A DNA stretch of 64,000 nt, taken from positions 1-64,000 of the forward strand of contig NZ_CP113975.1 of NCBI RefSeq assembly GCF_026870155.1, in the 5' to 3' direction. The position numbers and the translations under genes were made by a program. Positions 36,263-52,451 of the stretch are shown piece by piece. The notes below the pieces were generated by a model, which worked only from the letters and a program-made list of their open reading frames with translations, was not told the DNA's origin and made no database searches. Every line of letters starts with the position of its first letter. The first letter of the stretch is position 1. This DNA comes from Flavobacterium marginilacus (lineage in GTDB: Bacteria > Bacteroidota > Bacteroidia > Flavobacteriales > Flavobacteriaceae).

Positions 36263-36284
36263 TTTCTAGAATATATAAAAAGCG

Positions 36285-36312
36285 AAAAAAGAGCCAAACG
36301 GCTCTTTTTTTT
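36285..36312 (+). terminator. Terminator of the atp operon
   Basis: GAGCC, loop AAAC, GGCTC, extended by A/T pairing and followed by a run of eight T; 29 bases after the atpG stop. Confidence 0.9.
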
Positions 36313-37296: not shown

Positions 37297-37971
37297 ATGG
37301 CAAAAGAAAGTTTTAATTGGAAAAGTCTTTTTATTAATGAAGAAACTGAATCACCATCAGAAACAAATAAACCGCAGACTCCAATAACTCCCCAACCTAG
37401 CGAGGTTACTAAATTTCCAAATCACGCTACTCAGCCAATATCTTATGAATCAGCTGCTAATCCTTTTTTAAAAGAAATTCTGGAAGTTTATGAAAAAGGT
37501 TTTGAATCTTTGAATGCTTCTGGTTTTGATTTTTTTGAATTGTATAAATCTGTTGTAGCTGTCGGGATTTCTAATCCTCAGAGTTATCAGATGGCTTTTA
37601 CGATGGGTAAAACCATTCAGGCTGATTTGAGCAAACAGTCTCTTCTTGATAAGGCCAATTTTTATGTTACCGAAATTGAAAAAGTATATACTAAATACGA
37701 TACTATTGGTAAAACGAAAAAAACGGATTTAGAAAATAATCTGACCAAAGAAAAATACAATCTTTCCAAAAGTATAGAAGAATTAAATACGAAGATTCTT
37801 CAGCTTCAGAATGAATTGGAAACCAAGAAAGCAGAATTTCAAAAAATGGATTCCAATAATATAGAACAGTTTTCGGAGATAAAACTAAAGATGGAAGCTA
37901 ACGATTTGGCCAAACATAAAATCATCGATTCAATCAACACAGTAGTAACAGGAATTAATCAATATTTATAA
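37297..37971 (+). CDS. Coiled-coil protein of unknown function, first gene of the SBP-OmpA/ABC cluster
   Basis: 224 residues, no signal peptide and no membrane helix. A Pro/Thr/Ser-rich disordered N-terminus (about 12-55) is followed by a helical domain (FLKEILEVYEKGFESLNASG; YQMAFTMGKTIQADLSKQS) and a coiled coil at about 140-200. No domain was recognised. Four bases separate it from the next gene, so the two are almost certainly co-translated. A cytoplasmic partner of the membrane coiled-coil protein is the simplest reading. Confidence 0.75.
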   Translation: MAKESFNWKSLFINEETESPSETNKPQTPITPQPSEVTKFPNHATQPISYESAANPFLKEILEVYEKGFESLNASGFDFFELYKSVVAVGISNPQSYQMAFTMGKTIQADLSKQSLLDKANFYVTEIEKVYTKYDTIGKTKKTDLENNLTKEKYNLSKSIEELNTKILQLQNELETKKAEFQKMDSNNIEQFSEIKLKMEANDLAKHKIIDSINTVVTGINQYL

Positions 37972-37974
37972 TTA

Positions 37975-39096
37975 ATGGACAAATTTGAACAAGAAAAAAG
38001 TACTCTATTATCACTTCCAATATTAAAACATTTTGACGAGTCAAAAGGAGAAATAGCCTTAAAATCTGGAACCTTAAAAAAAGGCGAGCAGACTCTTTTT
38101 TGGGGTTTGGCTTTGGGTTTATTAGGTATTGGAGGATATTTAACCTGGACATATATCATTCCGCCTCTTTTTACAATGCTGGGTCAGGCAATTGCTTTGT
38201 CGGCAACCGGAGTTTTTTTGGTTTTTTTAGTAATGATGTTTCCGGTAATTATGAAAGGATTGAGATTTGCTACCAAAAATCTTCATAAAGCTTTAATTCA
38301 AAGCAATCCTTTTAATGAATTGGAAGAGCAGAAACAAAAAATGGTAAAAAACCGTGAAGTTTTTAAGAATACCAAAGCCAAGCTGAAAGGTCTTAAAAAT
38401 GAAATGGAAATTGAAGCCAGTAAATCTGAAAAAGAGGCCAAATCTTTTCAGGAAGATGTTTTAAGCTTAAAACGCCAATGCGAAAAGCTGAAATCGGCAA
38501 TGGATGAAATGGTTAGACTGAACGGAGCTGGCGCCAAAGATACTGATGAATATGTTGCTCTTCAAAGTGAGTTAGCCAAAAAGTTAAGTGATTCACAAAG
38601 GATTTCTACTCAATATGAGCAAAGCAAAAATTTCATTCAAAAGTATGGTGTTCGTGCCAATGTTTTAGGAAAAATGGACAGAAAACTGACGTTGGCAGGA
38701 ACAGCAATTGATATAAAAATTGCTGATTTTGACGCAACAGTTACAATGCTTCAAAAAGAATATGAGTTTGCCAGAAATGCTAAAGAAGCAACAGAAAGTG
38801 CCAAAAGTGCGATGATGTTTACCAAAGATTGGGAACTGGAATATGCATTGGAGGTGGTAACTTCGACAATTGCGCTGGATATTGCCAGAACTTCTGAAAA
38901 CCTGATTGATATTGATTCACTTACTTCTAAATATTCTGTAGATAATGATGAATTGTATTCCAGATTAGATTCATTGGCAGACGAAATTAAAACAGGAGAC
39001 AATACTATTCCAGATTCTACGAAATATTCGAGTCCAAATTATAAACTGACTAAAGAAGACAAAATGTCTAGTGGCGGTTTTGGAGATATTTTTTAA
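37975..39096 (+). CDS. Membrane-anchored coiled-coil protein, unknown function
   Basis: 373 residues. Two adjacent membrane helices (about 42-62 and 66-88) follow a short cytoplasmic N-terminus; the rest is a long cytoplasmic coiled coil (about 110-300) and a low-complexity tail ending SSGGFGDIF. The layout recalls XpaC-like or PspA-like envelope-stress proteins, but no diagnostic motif is seen. It lies 26 bases before the SBP-OmpA gene. Probably an inner-membrane scaffold working with the preceding protein. Confidence 0.72.
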   Translation: MDKFEQEKSTLLSLPILKHFDESKGEIALKSGTLKKGEQTLFWGLALGLLGIGGYLTWTYIIPPLFTMLGQAIALSATGVFLVFLVMMFPVIMKGLRFATKNLHKALIQSNPFNELEEQKQKMVKNREVFKNTKAKLKGLKNEMEIEASKSEKEAKSFQEDVLSLKRQCEKLKSAMDEMVRLNGAGAKDTDEYVALQSELAKKLSDSQRISTQYEQSKNFIQKYGVRANVLGKMDRKLTLAGTAIDIKIADFDATVTMLQKEYEFARNAKEATESAKSAMMFTKDWELEYALEVVTSTIALDIARTSENLIDIDSLTSKYSVDNDELYSRLDSLADEIKTGDNTIPDSTKYSSPNYKLTKEDKMSSGGFGDIF

Positions 39097-39122
39097 TAAA
39101 TAATTTAAATTTTAAAAATAAA

Positions 39123-40937
39123 ATGGGAAAAATTTTAAGAACGGAAAAGCTAACCACTTTTTCTGAATTATTGATTGTTATTATTGCAATAGGAGGAATT
39201 TTAGGAGCAGTATATTATATTTCTCCAGGAATCAAAACTGCTATTTCAAAACAATTGAACGGAATGGAATTGAATGGCACAGATGTAAATAATGTTACTA
39301 ATGCCGAAAAAATTGCACTTCCGTCTACTGACATATCTTCTGAAGTAAGCAGTAAACCTTTAGTAAGAATTGGAGGATATGCCTGGAATGCTCAGTCAGG
39401 AATTATTGTTGCTAATGGTGGACCAAAAACAACAAAGGGTTCTTTGATGGAAAAAAACGGAGTTAATCTTGAAATTGTGCGTCAGGACTGGCTTTCGGAA
39501 TTGCGTAATATGCAGATGAAATTCATCGAAGAATTTGATAAGGGAGAAGCTTTTCCTTCATCTGACAAGAGTGTTTTTGCAGTTATGATTATGGGTGACG
39601 GAGCACCTTTTTATATTAGTTCTGCTCAAAAATCATTAGACGAGAAATACGGAAAAGACAAATACCACTTACAGGTTATGGGTGTGGTCGGTATGAGTTA
39701 TGGTGAAGATAAATTAATCGGACCGCCAAATTGGAAATCTGATCCAAAATCTATGAAAGGATCTGTTATTTCGGCTGTTCTTGGAGATGGTGACTGGGTT
39801 ACGACCGTAAATTATTGTTTTGCAAATGGATTAAAAGTAAATCCAGATCCAACAACTTATGATGCAGAAGCGGTAAATATTTATCCTTCAGAAAATGATG
39901 ATTACATCAAATCTGCAGAGGAATTGATTAAATCCCAAACAACAGGCTGGACTGTTACTTTGAAAGAAGTGGTAAATGGAAAATTAACTGGAAAATCGGT
40001 TAACAGAAAAATTGATGGCTGTGCTACCTGGACGCCTGGAGATAAAACGGTTTTTGATAAACTTTCTGGTTTTGTTGATATCGTTTCTACGAAAGAATTC
40101 AATAATCAAATGCCAACAGCACTTATTGGTGTGAAAGAATGGGCGGTAAAAAATCCTGATATTGTTTCCAATATTTTGAAATCGGCTTTGACAGCTTCAA
40201 ATCAAATGAAAAATTATGAAGACTGGAAAGTAAGAGCTTCTCAGGCAGTTAGCGATACTTATAAAATGGAAACTCCAGAATATTGGTACAAAATGTTTAA
40301 AGGACAACAGGGCACAAAAGCTGGATTGACCTATAATATGGGAGGTTCAAAGGTGTTTAATTATGCTGATGCAATGCAGTATTTTGGAATGTCAGACGGT
40401 GTAAACAGATATAAATCAGTTTATAATCAAGTTTCTGGATATTTAACTGAATTGAATCCGTTTGGATTTAATGAAAATGTAGGAGCTGTAGTTCCTTATG
40501 ATCAGGCTGTAAATTTATTTTTCCTTAAAAATATTAACGATATCGAATCAACTTCTGCAGATAAAGCAGATTATTCTACACAAGCTACTGAGGTTATGGC
40601 TTCTGGTGAATGGAAAATCAATTTTAGTTCAGGAAGTGCTTCTGTTCAAAGCAGTTCGAATAAAGATTTAGAGAAAATTTATAATCTTTTGGTTCAGGCA
40701 GAAAATAGTAAATTAACAGTTGTTGGACATACAGATAATGTTGGAAACAGCGAATCTAATTTAGCTTTATCAAAAAGCAGAGCGCAGGCTGTTGTTGATT
40801 ATCTGAAACAAAAAGGTATTCCGGAAAACCGTTTCCAGCTGATTGACGGTAAAGGTCAAAATGAGCCGGTTGCTGACAACAGTACAGAATCTGGTAAATC
40901 GAAAAACCGTAGAGTTGTAATTACGTTCTTGAAATAA
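39123..40937 (+). CDS. Membrane-anchored ABC solute-binding protein fused to an OmpA domain
   Basis: 604 residues. One N-terminal membrane helix (about 16-37) without cleavage site anchors it. Residues about 75-490 look like a periplasmic solute-binding protein of the nitrate/taurine type (RIGGYAWNAQSGIIVANGG; FVDIVSTKEFNNQMPTALIG; VKNPDIVSNILKSAL). The C-terminal 100 residues are an OmpA/MotB peptidoglycan-binding domain with VGHTDNVGNSESNLALSKSRA and GKSKNRRVVITF, including the Asp and Arg that bind meso-diaminopimelate. The following permease and ATPase complete an ABC importer. A binding protein tied to both membrane and cell wall is unusual. Substrate unknown. Confidence 0.82.
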   Translation: MGKILRTEKLTTFSELLIVIIAIGGILGAVYYISPGIKTAISKQLNGMELNGTDVNNVTNAEKIALPSTDISSEVSSKPLVRIGGYAWNAQSGIIVANGGPKTTKGSLMEKNGVNLEIVRQDWLSELRNMQMKFIEEFDKGEAFPSSDKSVFAVMIMGDGAPFYISSAQKSLDEKYGKDKYHLQVMGVVGMSYGEDKLIGPPNWKSDPKSMKGSVISAVLGDGDWVTTVNYCFANGLKVNPDPTTYDAEAVNIYPSENDDYIKSAEELIKSQTTGWTVTLKEVVNGKLTGKSVNRKIDGCATWTPGDKTVFDKLSGFVDIVSTKEFNNQMPTALIGVKEWAVKNPDIVSNILKSALTASNQMKNYEDWKVRASQAVSDTYKMETPEYWYKMFKGQQGTKAGLTYNMGGSKVFNYADAMQYFGMSDGVNRYKSVYNQVSGYLTELNPFGFNENVGAVVPYDQAVNLFFLKNINDIESTSADKADYSTQATEVMASGEWKINFSSGSASVQSSSNKDLEKIYNLLVQAENSKLTVVGHTDNVGNSESNLALSKSRAQAVVDYLKQKGIPENRFQLIDGKGQNEPVADNSTESGKSKNRRVVITFLK

Positions 40938-40953
40938 ACTTTTATATAATAGC

Positions 40954-40999
40954 AAAGACACAGGAAATCCGTTAATGGAAAACTGTGTCTTTGTTTTTT
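40954..40999 (+). terminator. Terminator between the SBP-OmpA gene and the ABC permease gene
   Basis: Perfect 11-base stem CAAAGACACAG / CTGTGTCTTTG with an 18-base loop and a run of six T. It would reduce transcription of the transporter genes relative to the binding protein. Confidence 0.8.
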
Positions 41000-41011
41000 A
41001 AAATATTTTTT

Positions 41012-41782
41012 ATGATAAAAATTTTTACCCCTTTTGAGAAATTATCAAAAAGCCACAAAACGCTCATTTTATTAGGCTGGCTATTTCTTTTGATAGTGAT
41101 TTGGTTTGTTGGAACTTCAGGGACAAAACATCTTTTTCCTTCGCCAGGACAGGTTTTAACCGGTTTTACGGATTTGTATAATGAAGGCTTGGTTGTCCAC
41201 ATTTTTAATTCTTTGCAATTGTGTTTTATCTCAATTTTTTTGGCTACAATAATTTCGTTATTATTTGCTTATACATGGCCAATTCCGGCTTTAAAATCTG
41301 TTTCTGAATTTGTGACTAAATTCCGTTTTTTGCCTTTTACTGGTCTGTCATTTTATATCACAATGGTAATCCATGAAGCGAGAACAATGCAGGTTTGGAT
41401 TCTAGTTGTTTTCTTGACAACTTTCTTGACAACCTCTTTAATTGCGGTTATCAAAGACATTCCTCAAGAAGAATTTGACCATGCCAAAACTTTAAAATGC
41501 AGTCGATTGGAAGTGCTTTGGCAGGTTATTATTTTAGGAAGACTAGATTATGTTATTGATGTTATCAGACAAAATCTGGCGATTACATGGATGATGCTTG
41601 TTACAGTTGAATCCATAGTTGTTGCATCAGGCGGATTGGGATTTTTAATAAAAAACTCCGATAAATTCATGAATACCGGACGTATAATAGCACTGCAGAT
41701 TATTATTTTATTAATAGGCTTAGCACTTGACGCGGGTATAAATTTTTTAAGAAAAACAATATTCAGATATTCAAAAATATAA
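41012..41782 (+). CDS. ABC transporter permease (nitrate/sulfonate/taurine type)
   Basis: 256 residues from ATG 41012; a GTG at 40985 lies inside the terminator stem and is rejected. Six membrane helices. The cytoplasmic EAA loop is EEFDHAKTLKCSRLEVLWQV, followed by a Gly-rich turn and IRQNLAITWMMLVTVES, typical of SsuC/TauC-like permeases. It forms the inner-membrane channel for the SBP-OmpA protein upstream; the ATPase starts six bases downstream. Confidence 0.9.
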   Translation: MIKIFTPFEKLSKSHKTLILLGWLFLLIVIWFVGTSGTKHLFPSPGQVLTGFTDLYNEGLVVHIFNSLQLCFISIFLATIISLLFAYTWPIPALKSVSEFVTKFRFLPFTGLSFYITMVIHEARTMQVWILVVFLTTFLTTSLIAVIKDIPQEEFDHAKTLKCSRLEVLWQVIILGRLDYVIDVIRQNLAITWMMLVTVESIVVASGGLGFLIKNSDKFMNTGRIIALQIIILLIGLALDAGINFLRKTIFRYSKI

Positions 41783-41788
41783 ATTCAA

Positions 41789-42619
41789 ATGAAACACGAA
41801 TATAAAGAAACACTTTTATATGTAGAAAATCTTAGTGTTGCCTATGATGACACTGTAATTATAAAAGATATAAACCTTACCGAAAAAGATGTTATTCGCG
41901 AAGGAGTTGACTGTACAGGACAGGTAATTGCATTTGTGGGAAGATCTGGAAGAGGAAAATCTACTTTTTTTAAAGCCTTAACGGGATTAGTCCCTTGTAC
42001 AGATGGGAAAATATTGATACGTGATTTTGAAAATCCTGAACCAAATGCTGCTAAGCTTGTTAAAGAAGGTGATATTGGTTTTGTAGATCAAAAATATACT
42101 TTGTTCAGACATAAAACAGTTCATCAGGCGCTTAAATTTTCATTGAGGAAAACAACACTTTCGGAAACTGAAAAAGAGAGTAAAATAAAAGAATATTTGA
42201 AAGTATGGGGACTGGAAAACTGTGCCGATAAATATCCAAATGAACTTTCGGGAGGGCAGAGACAAAGAACAGCAATTATAGAACAGTTGTTTTCTTCGGA
42301 TAATTTTATTGTTTTGGATGAGCCTTTCTCTGGTTTAGATGTTGGAAATATTGAAGAAGTGAAAAAATCATTTGCTTTGCTTTGCAAAACTTCCGATTAT
42401 AATACGGTAATATTTTCTACACATGATATTGAATTGGCTTTGGAACTAGCGCAATCAATTTATGTAATCGGGAATCCCACAATCAATGGGAAAAAAGAAA
42501 AATATGGAACTATTGTTGCAAAGTATGACCTTAGGGATATTGGACTGGCTTGGACGGAATTTGGAGAAGACCATCGAAAACTAAGTAAAGAGATTGTCCA
42601 TCAAATGATGATTTCGTAA
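41789..42619 (+). CDS. ABC transporter ATP-binding protein (TauB/SsuB-like)
   Basis: 276 residues. Walker A GRSGRGKST, Q-loop VDQKYTLFRH, signature ELSGGQRQRT, Walker B IVLDEPFSGLD, switch His in STHDIEL. An insertion (about 33-46, EKDVIREGVDCTG) before Walker A is longer than in most TauB proteins, and the C-terminal 60 residues form an extra segment. It powers the preceding permease. Confidence 0.92.
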   Translation: MKHEYKETLLYVENLSVAYDDTVIIKDINLTEKDVIREGVDCTGQVIAFVGRSGRGKSTFFKALTGLVPCTDGKILIRDFENPEPNAAKLVKEGDIGFVDQKYTLFRHKTVHQALKFSLRKTTLSETEKESKIKEYLKVWGLENCADKYPNELSGGQRQRTAIIEQLFSSDNFIVLDEPFSGLDVGNIEEVKKSFALLCKTSDYNTVIFSTHDIELALELAQSIYVIGNPTINGKKEKYGTIVAKYDLRDIGLAWTEFGEDHRKLSKEIVHQMMIS

Positions 42620-42690
42620 TAGAGTAGATTTTTAAAAATGTAATTTGGTCTGTTGTCAAAAGATTTTAGAAATAGTAATAAAGATAAACA

Positions 42691-44121
42691 ATGGCTTTTA
42701 CCGCTTCATTTATTCAAGAATTAAGAGATGAGACTTCAAAAATCTTTGCCATTTGTTCATCATTAAATAAAGAAAATTTATTTGTTCAAAAAATAAATGA
42801 GCTTGCAGTTCCTAATAATTCGAATGGACTGCTGATAAAAACAGAACATTTTTTCCTCTCAGATTGTATAGAAATGTACAATCTGTGTTTAGGAAAAGAA
42901 AATGATAGAGCCAGATTTACTTTGGCCTATTATTATGATGCTTTGCGAAACGGCAGTTTTGCCGATGAAAAAGAGGTTAAGTCTTTAAACTCATTAGTAG
43001 GTTCTGAAAATTTTAAAAAGCATATTTCAAAAATCAGAAGTGAAAACAGTCTGCTTTGGTCAAAGCCGAGTGATAAAAAATATTTCATTCCGAGTGTTTT
43101 ATTGGAAATTAATAATCCTGACTGCGAAAGAATTTTAGAGAAATATCAAAACTTTCTGCAGTATTCTTATGAAGTTAAGTTTAAAAACCGAGAAGATTTC
43201 GGAGTATTTATTGGATTAGAAACAAAGGATAAAAAAAATGAAAATTCGGATGTAACTTTTGTTTCAGAGAACGATTCTTTAGAAATTGTGCTTCAGGAAT
43301 TAGATCAATTAATAGGATTGGAGGAAGTAAAAAAAGATGTTTACGAACTGATAAATCTTTTGAAAATTCAAAAAAAGCGTTCTTCAGAAGGATTAAAAAA
43401 CATTGAAGTTACTTTACACACTGTTTTTTTGGGACCTCCCGGAACAGGAAAAACATCAGTAGCCAGACTTTTGAGCAGGGTATTTAAGCATTTGGGATTT
43501 TTATCAAAAGGACAGATGTATGAAACCGACAGAGAAGGAATGATTGCGGGCTATGTGGGACAAACCGCTTCCAAAGTGGATAAAGTGGTGGAAGAAAGTC
43601 TGGGAGGAGTATTGTTTATTGATGAGGCTTATGCTTTAACCCAGAATGCTTTAGGAAATGATTATGGCTCTGAAGCGGTTAATACGCTGTTAAAAAGAAT
43701 GGAAGATCATCGTGCAGATCTGGCTGTTGTTGTTGCCGGATATACAGAACCAATGAAAGACTTTGTAGAATCCAATCCAGGATTGCGGTCTCGTTTTAAC
43801 CGTTTTTTTAGATTTGACCATTTTACACCTGAACAGTTATTTTTAATCTTTGAGAATTTTTGCAAAAACTCTGATTTTATAATAGATGCAGATGCTAAAG
43901 AAAAATTAACCGATACCTTTGAATTACTATATTCTAAGAAAGATGAAAATTTTGGAAATGCCAGAGTTGTCCGCAATTTATTTGAAAAGTGTGTTCAAAA
44001 TCAAGCGAACAGAATAGTAAGTCTGTCATTGATTAATCAGGAAGTATTAAAAACTTTTACAGAAACAGATGTGCCGGAACCCAAAGATACTCAAAACCAA
44101 ATCAGTTTTTTTATAGGATAA
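42691..44121 (+). CDS. AAA+ ATPase of the CbxX/SpoVK family
   Basis: 476 residues. An unrecognised helical N-terminal domain (about 1-195) precedes the AAA+ module: LIGLEEVKKDVYELI, Walker A GPPGTGKTS, pore-loop region AGYVGQTASK, Walker B VLFIDEAYAL, and arginine finger GLRSRFNRF. CbxX-type ATPases remodel protein complexes (Rubisco activase CbbX is one). As last gene of the cluster it may assemble, unlock or recycle the membrane complex encoded upstream; this is inference from position. A 71-base gap separates it from the ATPase gene, and a terminator follows. Confidence 0.88.
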   Translation: MAFTASFIQELRDETSKIFAICSSLNKENLFVQKINELAVPNNSNGLLIKTEHFFLSDCIEMYNLCLGKENDRARFTLAYYYDALRNGSFADEKEVKSLNSLVGSENFKKHISKIRSENSLLWSKPSDKKYFIPSVLLEINNPDCERILEKYQNFLQYSYEVKFKNREDFGVFIGLETKDKKNENSDVTFVSENDSLEIVLQELDQLIGLEEVKKDVYELINLLKIQKKRSSEGLKNIEVTLHTVFLGPPGTGKTSVARLLSRVFKHLGFLSKGQMYETDREGMIAGYVGQTASKVDKVVEESLGGVLFIDEAYALTQNALGNDYGSEAVNTLLKRMEDHRADLAVVVAGYTEPMKDFVESNPGLRSRFNRFFRFDHFTPEQLFLIFENFCKNSDFIIDADAKEKLTDTFELLYSKKDENFGNARVVRNLFEKCVQNQANRIVSLSLINQEVLKTFTETDVPEPKDTQNQISFFIG

Positions 44122-49635: not shown

Positions 49636-50868
49636 ATGCAAAAATTTCTCTTAGGACTATTTTTTTTATGCACAACCTCATTGATTTGGGGTCAGGAGTC
49701 GCAGCAGGAAAAATTAGAAAAGCGTAAAGCCGAAATTCAGCAAGAAATTTTGGATAATGAAAAGCTGTTGAAATCGGTAAAGAATAAAGAAAGATCTGCC
49801 GTTAATGTAATTATTTTACAAAGCAATAAAATTAAACTCAAAGAAAAACTGATTCGTACTACAGAGAAACAAACAAAGATTCTCGGAAATGATATGTACA
49901 TTAATCAGTTAAAAATGAACAAGCTGAACAGAGAATTAGTTGTTCTCAAGGAAGATTATGCTAAGATGATAGTCAAATCATACAAAAGCCGATCCGAACA
50001 AAGCCGTGCTATGTTTTTATTATCATCGGAAAATTTTCTGCAGGCCTATAAAAGAGCTCAGTACATGAAACAATATACTGGATTTAGAAAAATGCAGGGA
50101 GAAGAAATTAAATCCAAAACAAACGAACTTTTGGGTTTTAATGAAAAACTGAATATTCAAAAAATTGCCAAGAAGAAATTATTAGCAGAAAATAATAAAG
50201 AGAAACAGTCTCTTGAAAAAGAAAAAAGAGAACAATTAAAGCTGGTGAATTCAATCAAAAAAGACAAGAAAAAAATCACCGCTGATATCAAAAGAAAACA
50301 AACCGAATCCAGAGCGATTGACCGTCAGATTGATCGTTTAATTCGTGAAGCAATCGCAGAGGCTAACAGAAAGGCAGCAAGTGAAAACCCAAATGCTTCA
50401 GCAGGAGCATACACATCGTCCAGAATAGTATTAACAGCCGAAGCTAAAATATTAGCAGATAATTTTAGAGCAAATAAAGGAAAACTGCCTTGGCCTGTAG
50501 AGAAAGGTTTTGTGTCTTTGGGGTATGGAGAACAGCCGCATCCTGTTTATCCAAGCCTTGTGATTCATAACAGCGGAGTGGAAATTACAACAGAACAGGG
50601 AGCAAATGCCAGAGCGGTCTTTGGCGGAGAAGTAAGCAGTGTAATCGTTTTATCTCCGGTAAATAAAGCGGTAATGATACAGCATGGAGATTGTTTTACA
50701 GTTTATCAAAATTTGAGTTCTGTTTATGTAACCAAAGGTGAAAAAGTAAATATCAAACAAAATTTGGGAAAAATAAGAACAAACGGAGATGGAAGAACAA
50801 TTTTGAAATTTACAATTTCACAAAATACAACTTATAACAATCCTGCAAGCTGGCTTTATAATATGTAG
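49636..50868 (+). CDS. EnvC-like murein hydrolase activator, copy 1
   Basis: 410 residues. Signal peptide (about 1-20), a long coiled coil (about 20-250), and a C-terminal LytM/M23 domain (about 295-410) with GYGEQPHPVYPSLVIHNSG and HGDCFTVYQNLSSV. The zinc ligands are lost: the HxxxD motif lacks its His/Asp pair and the HxH site reads HGDCF...YQN. The domain is thus likely inactive, as in E. coli EnvC, which activates amidases in cell division. A close paralogue follows. Confidence 0.9.
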   Translation: MQKFLLGLFFLCTTSLIWGQESQQEKLEKRKAEIQQEILDNEKLLKSVKNKERSAVNVIILQSNKIKLKEKLIRTTEKQTKILGNDMYINQLKMNKLNRELVVLKEDYAKMIVKSYKSRSEQSRAMFLLSSENFLQAYKRAQYMKQYTGFRKMQGEEIKSKTNELLGFNEKLNIQKIAKKKLLAENNKEKQSLEKEKREQLKLVNSIKKDKKKITADIKRKQTESRAIDRQIDRLIREAIAEANRKAASENPNASAGAYTSSRIVLTAEAKILADNFRANKGKLPWPVEKGFVSLGYGEQPHPVYPSLVIHNSGVEITTEQGANARAVFGGEVSSVIVLSPVNKAVMIQHGDCFTVYQNLSSVYVTKGEKVNIKQNLGKIRTNGDGRTILKFTISQNTTYNNPASWLYNM

Positions 50869-50888
50869 GCTTTCTGCAAAAAATAATG

Positions 50889-50931
50889 ACAGCACTATTT
50901 TATTTACAAAAATGAAATAGTGCTGTTTTTT
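50889..50931 (+). terminator. Terminator between the two EnvC-like genes
   Basis: ACAGCACTATTT with AAATAGTGCTGT, then a run of T. It separates the two paralogues into different transcripts. Confidence 0.85.
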
Positions 50932-50946
50932 AATAAAATCATTCAT

Positions 50947-50954
50947 TAAATTTG
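50947..50954 (+). promoter_or_regulatory. Candidate -7 element for EnvC copy 2
   Basis: TAAATTTG, 18 bases before the start; with the terminator just upstream it suggests independent expression. Confidence 0.5.
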
Positions 50955-50972
50955 CATTATATATAATTTACG

Positions 50973-52451
50973 ATGCCAAAATATTTTTTAAGCTTTATTT
51001 TTCTAATAACATCGGCTGTAATTTGGAGCCAGGACAATCAGCAAAAAAAATTAGAAGAGCGTAAAGTTAAAATTCAAGAAGAGATCCGCGAAAACGAGAC
51101 CAAACTTCAAACGGTAAAGAAGAAAGAAAAAACAGCTGCTAAGGCCATCGTTTTGCAAAGCAATAAAATCAAGCTTAAAGAAGAATTAATTGCAACTACC
51201 GAAAAACAAAAAACACTTCTTGGAAATTCAATTTCTGTAAATCAAGCCCAAATAAATAAACTGGAAAAAGAACTCGAATTACTCAAAGCAGATTATGCTA
51301 AGATGATTGTTCAATCCTATAAAAGCCGTTCCGAAGAGAGCCGGGCAATGTTTTTATTATCTTCGGAGAGTTTTCTGCAGGCCTATAAAAGGGCGCAGTA
51401 TATGAAACAATATGCAAATTATAGGAGAATTCAGGGACAGGAAATAAAGTCTAAATCATATGCTTTGTATACTTTTAATGCAAAATTAGATCTTCAAAAA
51501 AGTGCCAAAGAACAGCTGATTGCCGAGAATGATAAAGAAAGACTGTCTTTAGAAAAAGAAAAACAAGAACAGGAAAAACTGGTTGAGTCCTTAAAAAATG
51601 ATAAAAAGAAAATTATTGCCGACATTAAGAAAAAGCAGCTAGAGTCTAAGGCAATTGACAGAAAAATAGATAAGTTAATCCGGGAAGCAATCGCTGAGGC
51701 AAACAGAAAGGCCGCCATTGCAAAAGCAGCGAGAGAAAAAGCAGCGAGAGAAAAAGCTGCACTTGAAAAAGCCAAAGCCGAAGCGGCTGCTAAAGCCATT
51801 GCATTGGAAAAAGCCAAAGCATTGGAAAAGAAAAAAGAAATCGAGAAAGCAAATGCATTGGCAGCAGCCAAAGCCAAAGCCGAAGCAAAACCAAAACCAA
51901 AACCAATTCCGATTCCGAAGGAAGTTGAAAAAGCCATCGCAAAGGAAATACCAGTTGTTGCCAAAGAAGCACCTGTTGAACCAGCCGCAGCTGTTTCATC
52001 TACCAAAATAGATATGTCGCCTAAGGACAAGGTGGATTCAGATAATTTTAAAGCCAATAAAGGAAAATTGCCCTGGCCGGTCGAAAGAGGATTTATTTCT
52101 TTGGGATATGGCGATCAATTTCATCCGGTGTATAAAGAACTTAAAATCCACAACAGCGGATTGGAATTTACTACGGATTCGGGAGCTAGTGCCAGAGCTG
52201 TTTTTTCTGGAATCGTAACGAGAATTAACGTTATTTCGCCCGTAAATAAATTGGTAATATTACAGCATGGTGACTTTTTTACTATTTATCAAAATTTGAG
52301 CTCAGTGAAAGTAAGTTTGGGTGATAATGTGAGCATAAAACAAAGTTTGGGAAAAATAAAGACTAATGGTGATGGTAAAACAATATTAAAATTTGTGATA
52401 ACCCAAAACATGACGTACACTAATCCGAAACTTTGGCTGGCACCTAAATAG
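50973..52451 (+). CDS. EnvC-like murein hydrolase activator, copy 2, with Lys/Ala-rich insertion
   Basis: 492 residues. Signal peptide and coiled coil are closely similar to copy 1 (shared MFLLSSE.FLQAYKRAQYMKQY and LIREAIAEANRKAA), as is the degenerate LytM domain (GYGDQFHPVYKELKIHNSG; HGDFFTIYQNLSSV). It differs by an insertion of about 80 residues at about 245-330, made of repeated AAREKAALEKAKAEA-type Lys/Ala/Glu words ending in a Pro/Lys stretch. The insertion explains the whole length difference. Probably a tandem duplication whose second copy reaches farther in the periplasm or binds a different partner. Confidence 0.9.
   Translation: MPKYFLSFIFLITSAVIWSQDNQQKKLEERKVKIQEEIRENETKLQTVKKKEKTAAKAIVLQSNKIKLKEELIATTEKQKTLLGNSISVNQAQINKLEKELELLKADYAKMIVQSYKSRSEESRAMFLLSSESFLQAYKRAQYMKQYANYRRIQGQEIKSKSYALYTFNAKLDLQKSAKEQLIAENDKERLSLEKEKQEQEKLVESLKNDKKKIIADIKKKQLESKAIDRKIDKLIREAIAEANRKAAIAKAAREKAAREKAALEKAKAEAAAKAIALEKAKALEKKKEIEKANALAAAKAKAEAKPKPKPIPIPKEVEKAIAKEIPVVAKEAPVEPAAAVSSTKIDMSPKDKVDSDNFKANKGKLPWPVERGFISLGYGDQFHPVYKELKIHNSGLEFTTDSGASARAVFSGIVTRINVISPVNKLVILQHGDFFTIYQNLSSVKVSLGDNVSIKQSLGKIKTNGDGKTILKFVITQNMTYTNPKLWLAPK

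Follow-up and report, generated by a model that had tools for sequence, protein, structure and literature searches.

The closest described relatives of the locus reported here are bacterial operons, set out in a passage of Ravi et al. 2024 (PMC11237479; example OGG56892.1), that combine PspA or a transmembrane (TM) form of Snf7 with an AAA+ ATPase, ABC transporter components and a PBPB-OmpA protein. That passage, independently of our analysis and in line with the reading preferred below, interprets such operons as ATP-dependent membrane remodelling tied to solute transport. Our locus lies at 37297-44121 of a 64,000-nucleotide stretch, the window, which is positions 1 to 64,000 of contig NZ_CP113975.1 from the 5.32-Mb genome of Flavobacterium marginilacus; its nearest named relatives at the locus, among the best 80 of 251 relatives, are Flavobacterium. 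The listing of open reading frames (ORFs) of the window gives six genes, here A to F, all on the plus strand and in the order first predicted. Intergenic distances are 3 (A-B), 26 (B-C), 6 (D-E) and 71 bases (E-F), which leaves two of the three predicted spacings, 26 and 6, as they were and replaces the third, 4, by 3. Matched by genes alone against the wording of that passage, the content of the locus fits the operons, so the original prediction's suggestion of an undescribed composition falls away. The bacterial composition was thus known before; the parts that can be supported as new are a five-gene block in huge phages and a strict tie of F to the module in Flavobacterium. The locus is best explained as a bacterial form of a module also carried by huge phages.

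Sampling by similarity to C gave 138 loci, 87 cellular and 51 viral, with 23 additional loci that match only the OmpA part of C excluded from the counts. The cellular relatives taken from genome contigs are the best 80 of 251, a sample that under-represents any spread outside the Bacteroidota. Many loci are near-copies, and L002-L004 repeat L031, L059 and L061 in shorter form, so the counts are not independent. The cellular loci contain A in 76 cases, B in 79, D in 86, E in 84 and F in 65, with all of A to E in 75; the viral loci contain A in 35, B in 49, D in 46, E in 45 and F in none, with all of A to E in 30. Contig ends explain part of the missing genes. The order A-B-C-D-E on a single strand is kept in 105 of 105 complete loci, which rules out chance clustering and bears out the expectation of one linked module. 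A-B-C-D-E is one unit, a real conserved module.

A search based on B, with a query built from C-linked proteins, found 33 viral loci, 15 of them on contigs that the scan with C had missed. C is present in all 33, D in 32, A and E in 31 each, and F in none; the absences of D (one), E (two) and A (two) all fall at contig ends, and no case of A-B without the importer was seen among the viral loci. When single B proteins were run against the viral contigs, that of locus L130 matched its own contig only, and that of the 735-kb phage matched nothing. Among 296 Bacteroidota genomes, the window's and another of the same species included, B occurs in 14 genomes at 18 loci, with C and D beside it at seven. 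Plasmid searches matched 503 records, none with 80% of C covered.

Some loci contain further genes. A protein of about 150 residues lies between C and D (for example at L111:13317-13766) in 17 viral loci, among L111-L128, and in no cellular locus; by eye it has a signal-like N-terminus and barrel-like strands, and the two copies scanned match no Pfam family. A membrane protein of about 166 residues, encoded at L066:5922-6422 and in 18 further cellular loci, often has its gene placed between F and A; it likewise has no Pfam match in two copies scanned. Because look-alikes of it sit near B in L187 and L188, both without C and D, it may be a further partner. Loci L178-L188 are Bacteroidota A-B pairs or lone B genes with no importer genes; in L187 a 355-residue protein with no Pfam domain follows B, and by eye it has an N-terminal anchor like that of C.

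Huge phages carry the module, namely phage G, Lak-B5, LR756500 and LR756501. Three C queries against 50,697 phage records identified 20 records of at least 462 kb, a count of carriers rather than a share of phages of that size: LR756500 (462 kb), LR756501 and LR756503 (735 kb), 15 records of Prevotella Lak phages and two of Bacillus phage G. C also occurs on a 38-kb fragment, MT835556, and the remaining phage matches of the window's C are short OmpA pieces. The gene order is A-B-C-x-D-E in LR756500, A-B-C-D-E with a 50-residue ORF between A and B in LR756501, and A-B-C-D-E with small ORFs interspersed in Lak-B5. In phage G, D is gp243, E is gp245, an A-like gene is gp246, a B-like gene is gp247, and C occurs twice (gp249, gp250); GenBank labels these as 'ABC-like transporter permease' (gp243), 'ABC transporter' (gp245) and 'OmpA/MotB domain' (gp249 and gp250). 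Of the phage G ORFs tested, gp247 is the best against the B profile (67.9%, E 4.9e-5) and gp246 the best against A, at just 15.4%. Hosts named in the records of module-bearing phages are as different as Prevotella and Bacillus megaterium. The C gene pair of phage G (L163:9626-12831) is a tandem duplicate; C is single in the three other named phages read.

The terminase large subunit was sought in 52 records, made up of 48 from the 51 IMG/VR loci and the four named phages, and was found in 26, all four named phages included. The 26 records with no terminase match comprise 19 shorter than 80 kb and seven of 106-416 kb. Since this model also gives matches in 11 of 14 control cell genomes, a match alone is no proof of phage, and part of the IMG/VR records may come from host DNA. 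The match in Lak-B5, at 270288-271274, reads through eight TAG codons, which fits the alternative genetic code that has been reported for Lak phages. In the main text of PMC11237479 the word 'phages' does not occur, and 'viral' occurs at two places. No description of the module in phages was seen in passages of PMC7162821, PMC8297831, PMC8346664, PMC11165621 and PMC12363816; in the Jug phages of the last paper, terD is reported to have a pspA-like gene as its neighbor. In a wider search of open-licence text, PMC11237479 was the only source seen to describe the composition, and no phage description was seen.

A tree was built from 66 C proteins, 39 labelled phage and 27 labelled cell according to the collection they came from. 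It excludes C proteins shorter than 560 residues (named phages excepted), near-copies above 82% identity, and loci L015, L019, L023 and L028, which match C mainly through the OmpA domain; six near relatives and eight further proteins were added by hand. The two labels change four times on the tree, at least two of these changes being forced by well-supported branches, against a mean of 21.1 for shuffled labels. The window's clade falls within one well-supported group with L119, LR756500 and their kin, while phage G, Lak-B5 and LR756501 form long branches whose placement is unsure. Because bacterial clades lie among phage branches, there has been, if the labels hold, more than one transfer of the module between phages and Bacteroidota; the tree is unrooted, and any direction of transfer is one that we infer.

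PspA and Vipp1 have been described as ESCRT-III relatives that polymerise and act on membranes. PspA, which takes its name from the phage shock response, is a known host answer to membrane damage. Gene B (37975..39096, plus strand) encodes a 373-residue protein that, compared by hhalign with a 37-row PspA alignment, gives a probability of 94.4 and an E-value of 9.2e-8 over 217 columns. Other hhalign comparisons of B, with a small membrane protein, with A, and with two proteins labelled AtpF and EnvC-like, all stay below 7%. Vipp1 accounts for five of the nine PDB sequence matches of B, with a best E-value of 4.1e-5 and alignment from residue 23 on. The Pfam family PspA_IM30 matches four of 46 members of the B family at E<=0.01 (best 2.5e-7) and heads the Pfam tally of B relatives; the copy from genome G072 scores 33.1 bits against a PspA_IM30 cut-off of 33.9. 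PspA_IM30 has no match at E<=0.001 anywhere in the window's genome, which we count in favor of our reading. TelA and XpaC, suggested by the gene layout as possible relatives of A and B, were set aside, neither name appearing in that tally.

A structure model of B draws residues 36-110 (38080..38304), the predicted membrane part, as a single long helix, and residues 112-280 (38308..38814), the region covered by the PspA alignment, as a long helical hairpin. Hydropathy gives one segment over threshold in the window's copy, at residues 75-93, and two in the copies from Lak-B5 and LR756501. The coiled-coil membrane partner foreseen by the original prediction is supported, as an anchored protein with a predicted helical hairpin; its description as a two-helix membrane protein is likely from the Lak-B5 and LR756501 copies, while the window's copy shows a single segment modelled as one helix. 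On the profile comparisons, B is a PspA/Vipp1 relative (ESCRT-III superfamily) that carries a membrane anchor at its N-terminus; because it stays below the PspA_IM30 gathering score, we place it in the superfamily and do not count it as a classical PspA. This identity, as read from those alignments, and the carriage of the core by huge phages are the points that go beyond the earlier account of the locus.

Gene A (37297..37971, plus strand) encodes a 224-residue soluble coiled-coil protein of no named family, with no Pfam match above cut-off. It has a short N-terminal motif, W/F-K-x-L-F, followed by a linker, a conserved helical segment and a C-terminal coiled coil. The A model misses some A proteins that have diverged too far, and locus L131 has a divergent A-like gene before B. 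The idea that A is itself a PspA relative was dropped, as profile comparison with PspA gives only 1.7%.

Gene C (39123..40937, plus strand) encodes a 604-residue solute-binding protein anchored at its N-terminus, where there is one hydrophobic segment at residues 16-34. Its binding domain, at residues ~76-470 (39348..40532), has a fold nearest to TauA, CmpA, NrtA and SsuA, and residues 492-604 (40596..40934) form an OmpA domain, matched by Pfam at 1.6e-20, above cut-off, and found also by fold. OmpA domains bind peptidoglycan. The fusion is retained in 52 of 52 members. The motif ATWTPGD, at the ligand-holding place of TauA-like proteins, is the same in all 47 C proteins aligned; adding five proteins from named phages leaves only its P invariant. 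Gene D, a permease of the TauC/SsuC/NtrB type, is listed with a GTG start at 40985, and the in-frame ATG at 41012, which gives 256 residues, a length common to many relatives, appears the more likely start (41012..41782, plus strand). D matches the NCBIfam equivalog TauC at 1.5e-16, with 60.6 bits against a cut-off of 342, and ntrB with 41.6 against 209.05; its Pfam match to BPD_transp_1 is also below cut-off. Gene E (41789..42619, plus strand) encodes a 276-residue ABC ATPase, ABC_tran by Pfam. Of the 82 cellular E proteins, 80 contain all four motifs, searched as strict patterns; of the 47 viral ones, 36 do.

Genes for a binding protein, a permease and an ATPase stand together, as in a Type I ABC importer of the Tau/Nrt/Ssu kind. 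By these family matches C-D-E is a TauABC-type importer; because D scores below the TauC and NtrB equivalog cut-offs, we assign it to neither the taurine nor the nitrate importers. The earlier proposal of an importer with a wall-binding architecture holds up, with OmpA and the TauA-type fold in C, a permease and an ABC ATPase.

Gene F (42691..44121, plus strand) encodes a 476-residue AAA+ ATPase with the Pfam domains AAA and AAA_lid_6 and with Walker A and B motifs, which places it in the CbxX/SpoVK/EccA group. It scores below each equivalog cut-off: 255.3 bits against 422.95 for SpoVK, 230.3 against 466.65 for EccA and 210.9 against 459.25 for CbbX. Its N-terminal ~190 residues match no Pfam family; we suspect that they may be of Ter type (TerB). 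Of 121 Flavobacterium genomes, the window's included, 10 bear B, and these same 10, with none of the 111 others, have F at full length; two further Flavobacterium genomes match the ATPase part of F only. All 10 copies occupy one site, between atpG and a flippase gene, where the gap measures 7.5-14 kb. In 95 module-free Flavobacterium genomes with atpG and the flippase gene on one contig, the gap is at most 3 kb in 71, 3-7 kb in 14, 7-20 kb in four and more in six; in another 13 module-free genomes the two genes are on separate contigs or the second match is missing. F is upstream of A in 22 loci, such as those of Aquimarina and Cellulophaga. It is missing from 22 of the 87 cellular loci, seven of these having flanks of 1.5 kb only and others being on short contigs.

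Our preferred reading, which we hold tentatively and place just short of probable, is that the locus encodes an ESCRT-III-like machine for membrane maintenance, fixed to the wall and coupled to the importer, with F as its disassembly ATPase. One end of C would be anchored in the inner membrane and the other bound to peptidoglycan. Together with A, B would assemble into a polymer on the cytoplasmic side of the inner membrane, encircling the wall-fixed C-D-E complex and stabilising or shaping it; ATP use by C-D-E, its ligand binding, or both, might signal to the polymer when to assemble. Vps4 disassembles ESCRT-III, and in lineages that have F, this ATPase may, by analogy, pull the polymer apart in the same way. 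The envelope would thereby stay intact and energised in times of stress and, where a phage carries the module, for as long as its very large genome takes to replicate.

Several observations weigh against this reading. The window's B has no PspA_IM30 match and no Pfam family above cut-off, and the remaining four of its nine PDB matches are unrelated or designed coiled coils. Unrelated coiled coils also dominate the lists from structure searches with B, whose hairpin is itself only predicted. In phages, plain tblastn with the window's B matched LR756500 as the sole phage record, gp247 of phage G reaches only 4.3% against the PspA profile, and the H-loop pattern is not matched in E of phage G and Lak-B5. 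F is absent from nine well-flanked cellular loci (L091-L099, from Niastella, Longitalea, Ferruginibacter and others) as well as from all viral loci examined, with flanks of up to 10-15 kb, which excludes it as a universal disassembly factor. Finally, 11 of the 18 Bacteroidota B loci, as A-B pairs or B alone, are without C and D within ~9 kb, so in cells A-B can manage without the importer. The original prediction named, as a finding that would tell against it, coiled-coil and AAA+ homologs occurring mostly without ABC genes; this holds in part, at the Bacteroidota B loci, and the reverse is seen in viruses, with C at 33 of 33 B loci, and for F in Flavobacterium (10 of 10).

The same absence of C and D at 11 loci counts against the view that the locus mainly serves to take up a small anion or a sulfonate-like compound as a nutrient, with A and B only placing or stabilising the transporter and phages using it to feed infected cells. 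The kinship of C with TauA, CmpA, NrtA and SsuA and of D with TauC, the intact motifs of most E copies and the invariant ATWTPGD of the 47 aligned C proteins all speak for uptake, but a PspA-type partner is unusual for importers, and the OmpA fusion kept by every member is unneeded for uptake; we regard this account as unlikely. A role as envelope sensor or superinfection barrier strikes us as quite unlikely. Here C would detect either the wall or a phage arriving at the cell, its signal would pass on through the ABC ATPase, and A-B would seal or reshape the membrane; phages would exclude rivals with the module, and bacteria would use it for defence or stress response. Carriage by huge phages, the patchy spread (10 of 121 Flavobacterium genomes), the PspA-like character of B, and a layout like that of ZorAB, with the OmpA domain of C matching ZorB models, would suit such a role. 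It would suit, too, the statement in PMC7162821 that the huge phages it describes encode membrane or surface proteins, listed in a supplementary table, that possibly affect infection by other phages. The PADLOC matches are single domains that make up no system, however, and next to the module in the window lie genes for ATP synthase, for an acetyltransferase and for a flippase, in flanks for which no wider defence search was made.

It is highly improbable that the coiled-coil genes, the importer and the AAA+ gene are separate adjacent operons with no shared function. The A-B loci without C and D, and the viral and cellular loci without F, would fit that arrangement, but order and strand are constant across the complete loci of deeply diverged phages and bacteria, every viral B locus has C, and full-length F follows B through Flavobacterium without exception in either direction.

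With more doubt we extend the ESCRT-III-like reading to the history of the module. On this speculative account, possible although we lean against it, some of the largest phages encode an ESCRT-III-type machine, coupled to a wall-tethered importer, that sustains the host envelope in a long infection; Bacteroidota captured the module repeatedly, and in one lineage it gained an AAA+ ATPase for disassembly, so that what had been a viral device became a stress system of the chromosome. Huge phages do carry PspA relatives, in a constant block together with an importer that is tied to the wall, and this makes the module a concrete candidate for how giant phages keep the cell alive. The version in Flavobacterium, a tractable organism, with its added AAA+ partner, could show how a bacterial ESCRT-III polymer is disassembled.

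In the window, the module has the presumed ATP synthase genes, atpG among them, and an acetyltransferase gene upstream, and the flippase gene on the other side. A terminator-like hairpin of 12 pairs (36284..36311, plus strand) lies behind atpG, and the acetyltransferase gene sits between it and gene A; weaker terminator-like sites are present within module genes. A Bacteroidetes-type promoter pattern has four matches in the window against 3.1 expected, none of them just upstream of the module. Downstream, at 49636-52451, are two adjacent similar EnvC-like coiled-coil genes, an apparent tandem duplication.

Among known systems, the module shares with the operons of the PMC11237479 passage a PspA or TM-bearing Snf7 homolog, an AAA+ ATPase, an ABC ATPase, a permease and a PBPB-OmpA protein; that passage concerns bacteria, and its section gives no gene order, A protein or CbxX type. 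PspA and Vipp1 (IM30) resemble B over the 217 aligned columns and from residue 23, respectively, whereas B has a membrane-spanning part ahead, no PspA_IM30 match, the partner A and a linked importer. TauABC, NrtABCD and SsuABC share the fold of C and the types of D and E, but here the binding protein is membrane-anchored and OmpA-fused, D lies below the NCBIfam cut-offs, and a PspA-type partner is present. CbxX/CbbX, SpoVK and EccA share the AAA+ and lid domains of F, which differs in falling below their equivalog cut-offs, in its own N-terminal ~190 residues and in its tie to the module. The Jug phages of PMC12363816 are likewise huge phages with a pspA-like gene; they are set apart by description, as the terms ABC, OmpA, permease and transporter occur zero times in the main text. 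Zorya ZorAB has in common with the module a layout of OmpA and coiled-coil membrane proteins and the match of C's OmpA domain to ZorB models (PADLOC), while none of the six proteins matches ZorA, and the locus is accordingly not a member of that system.

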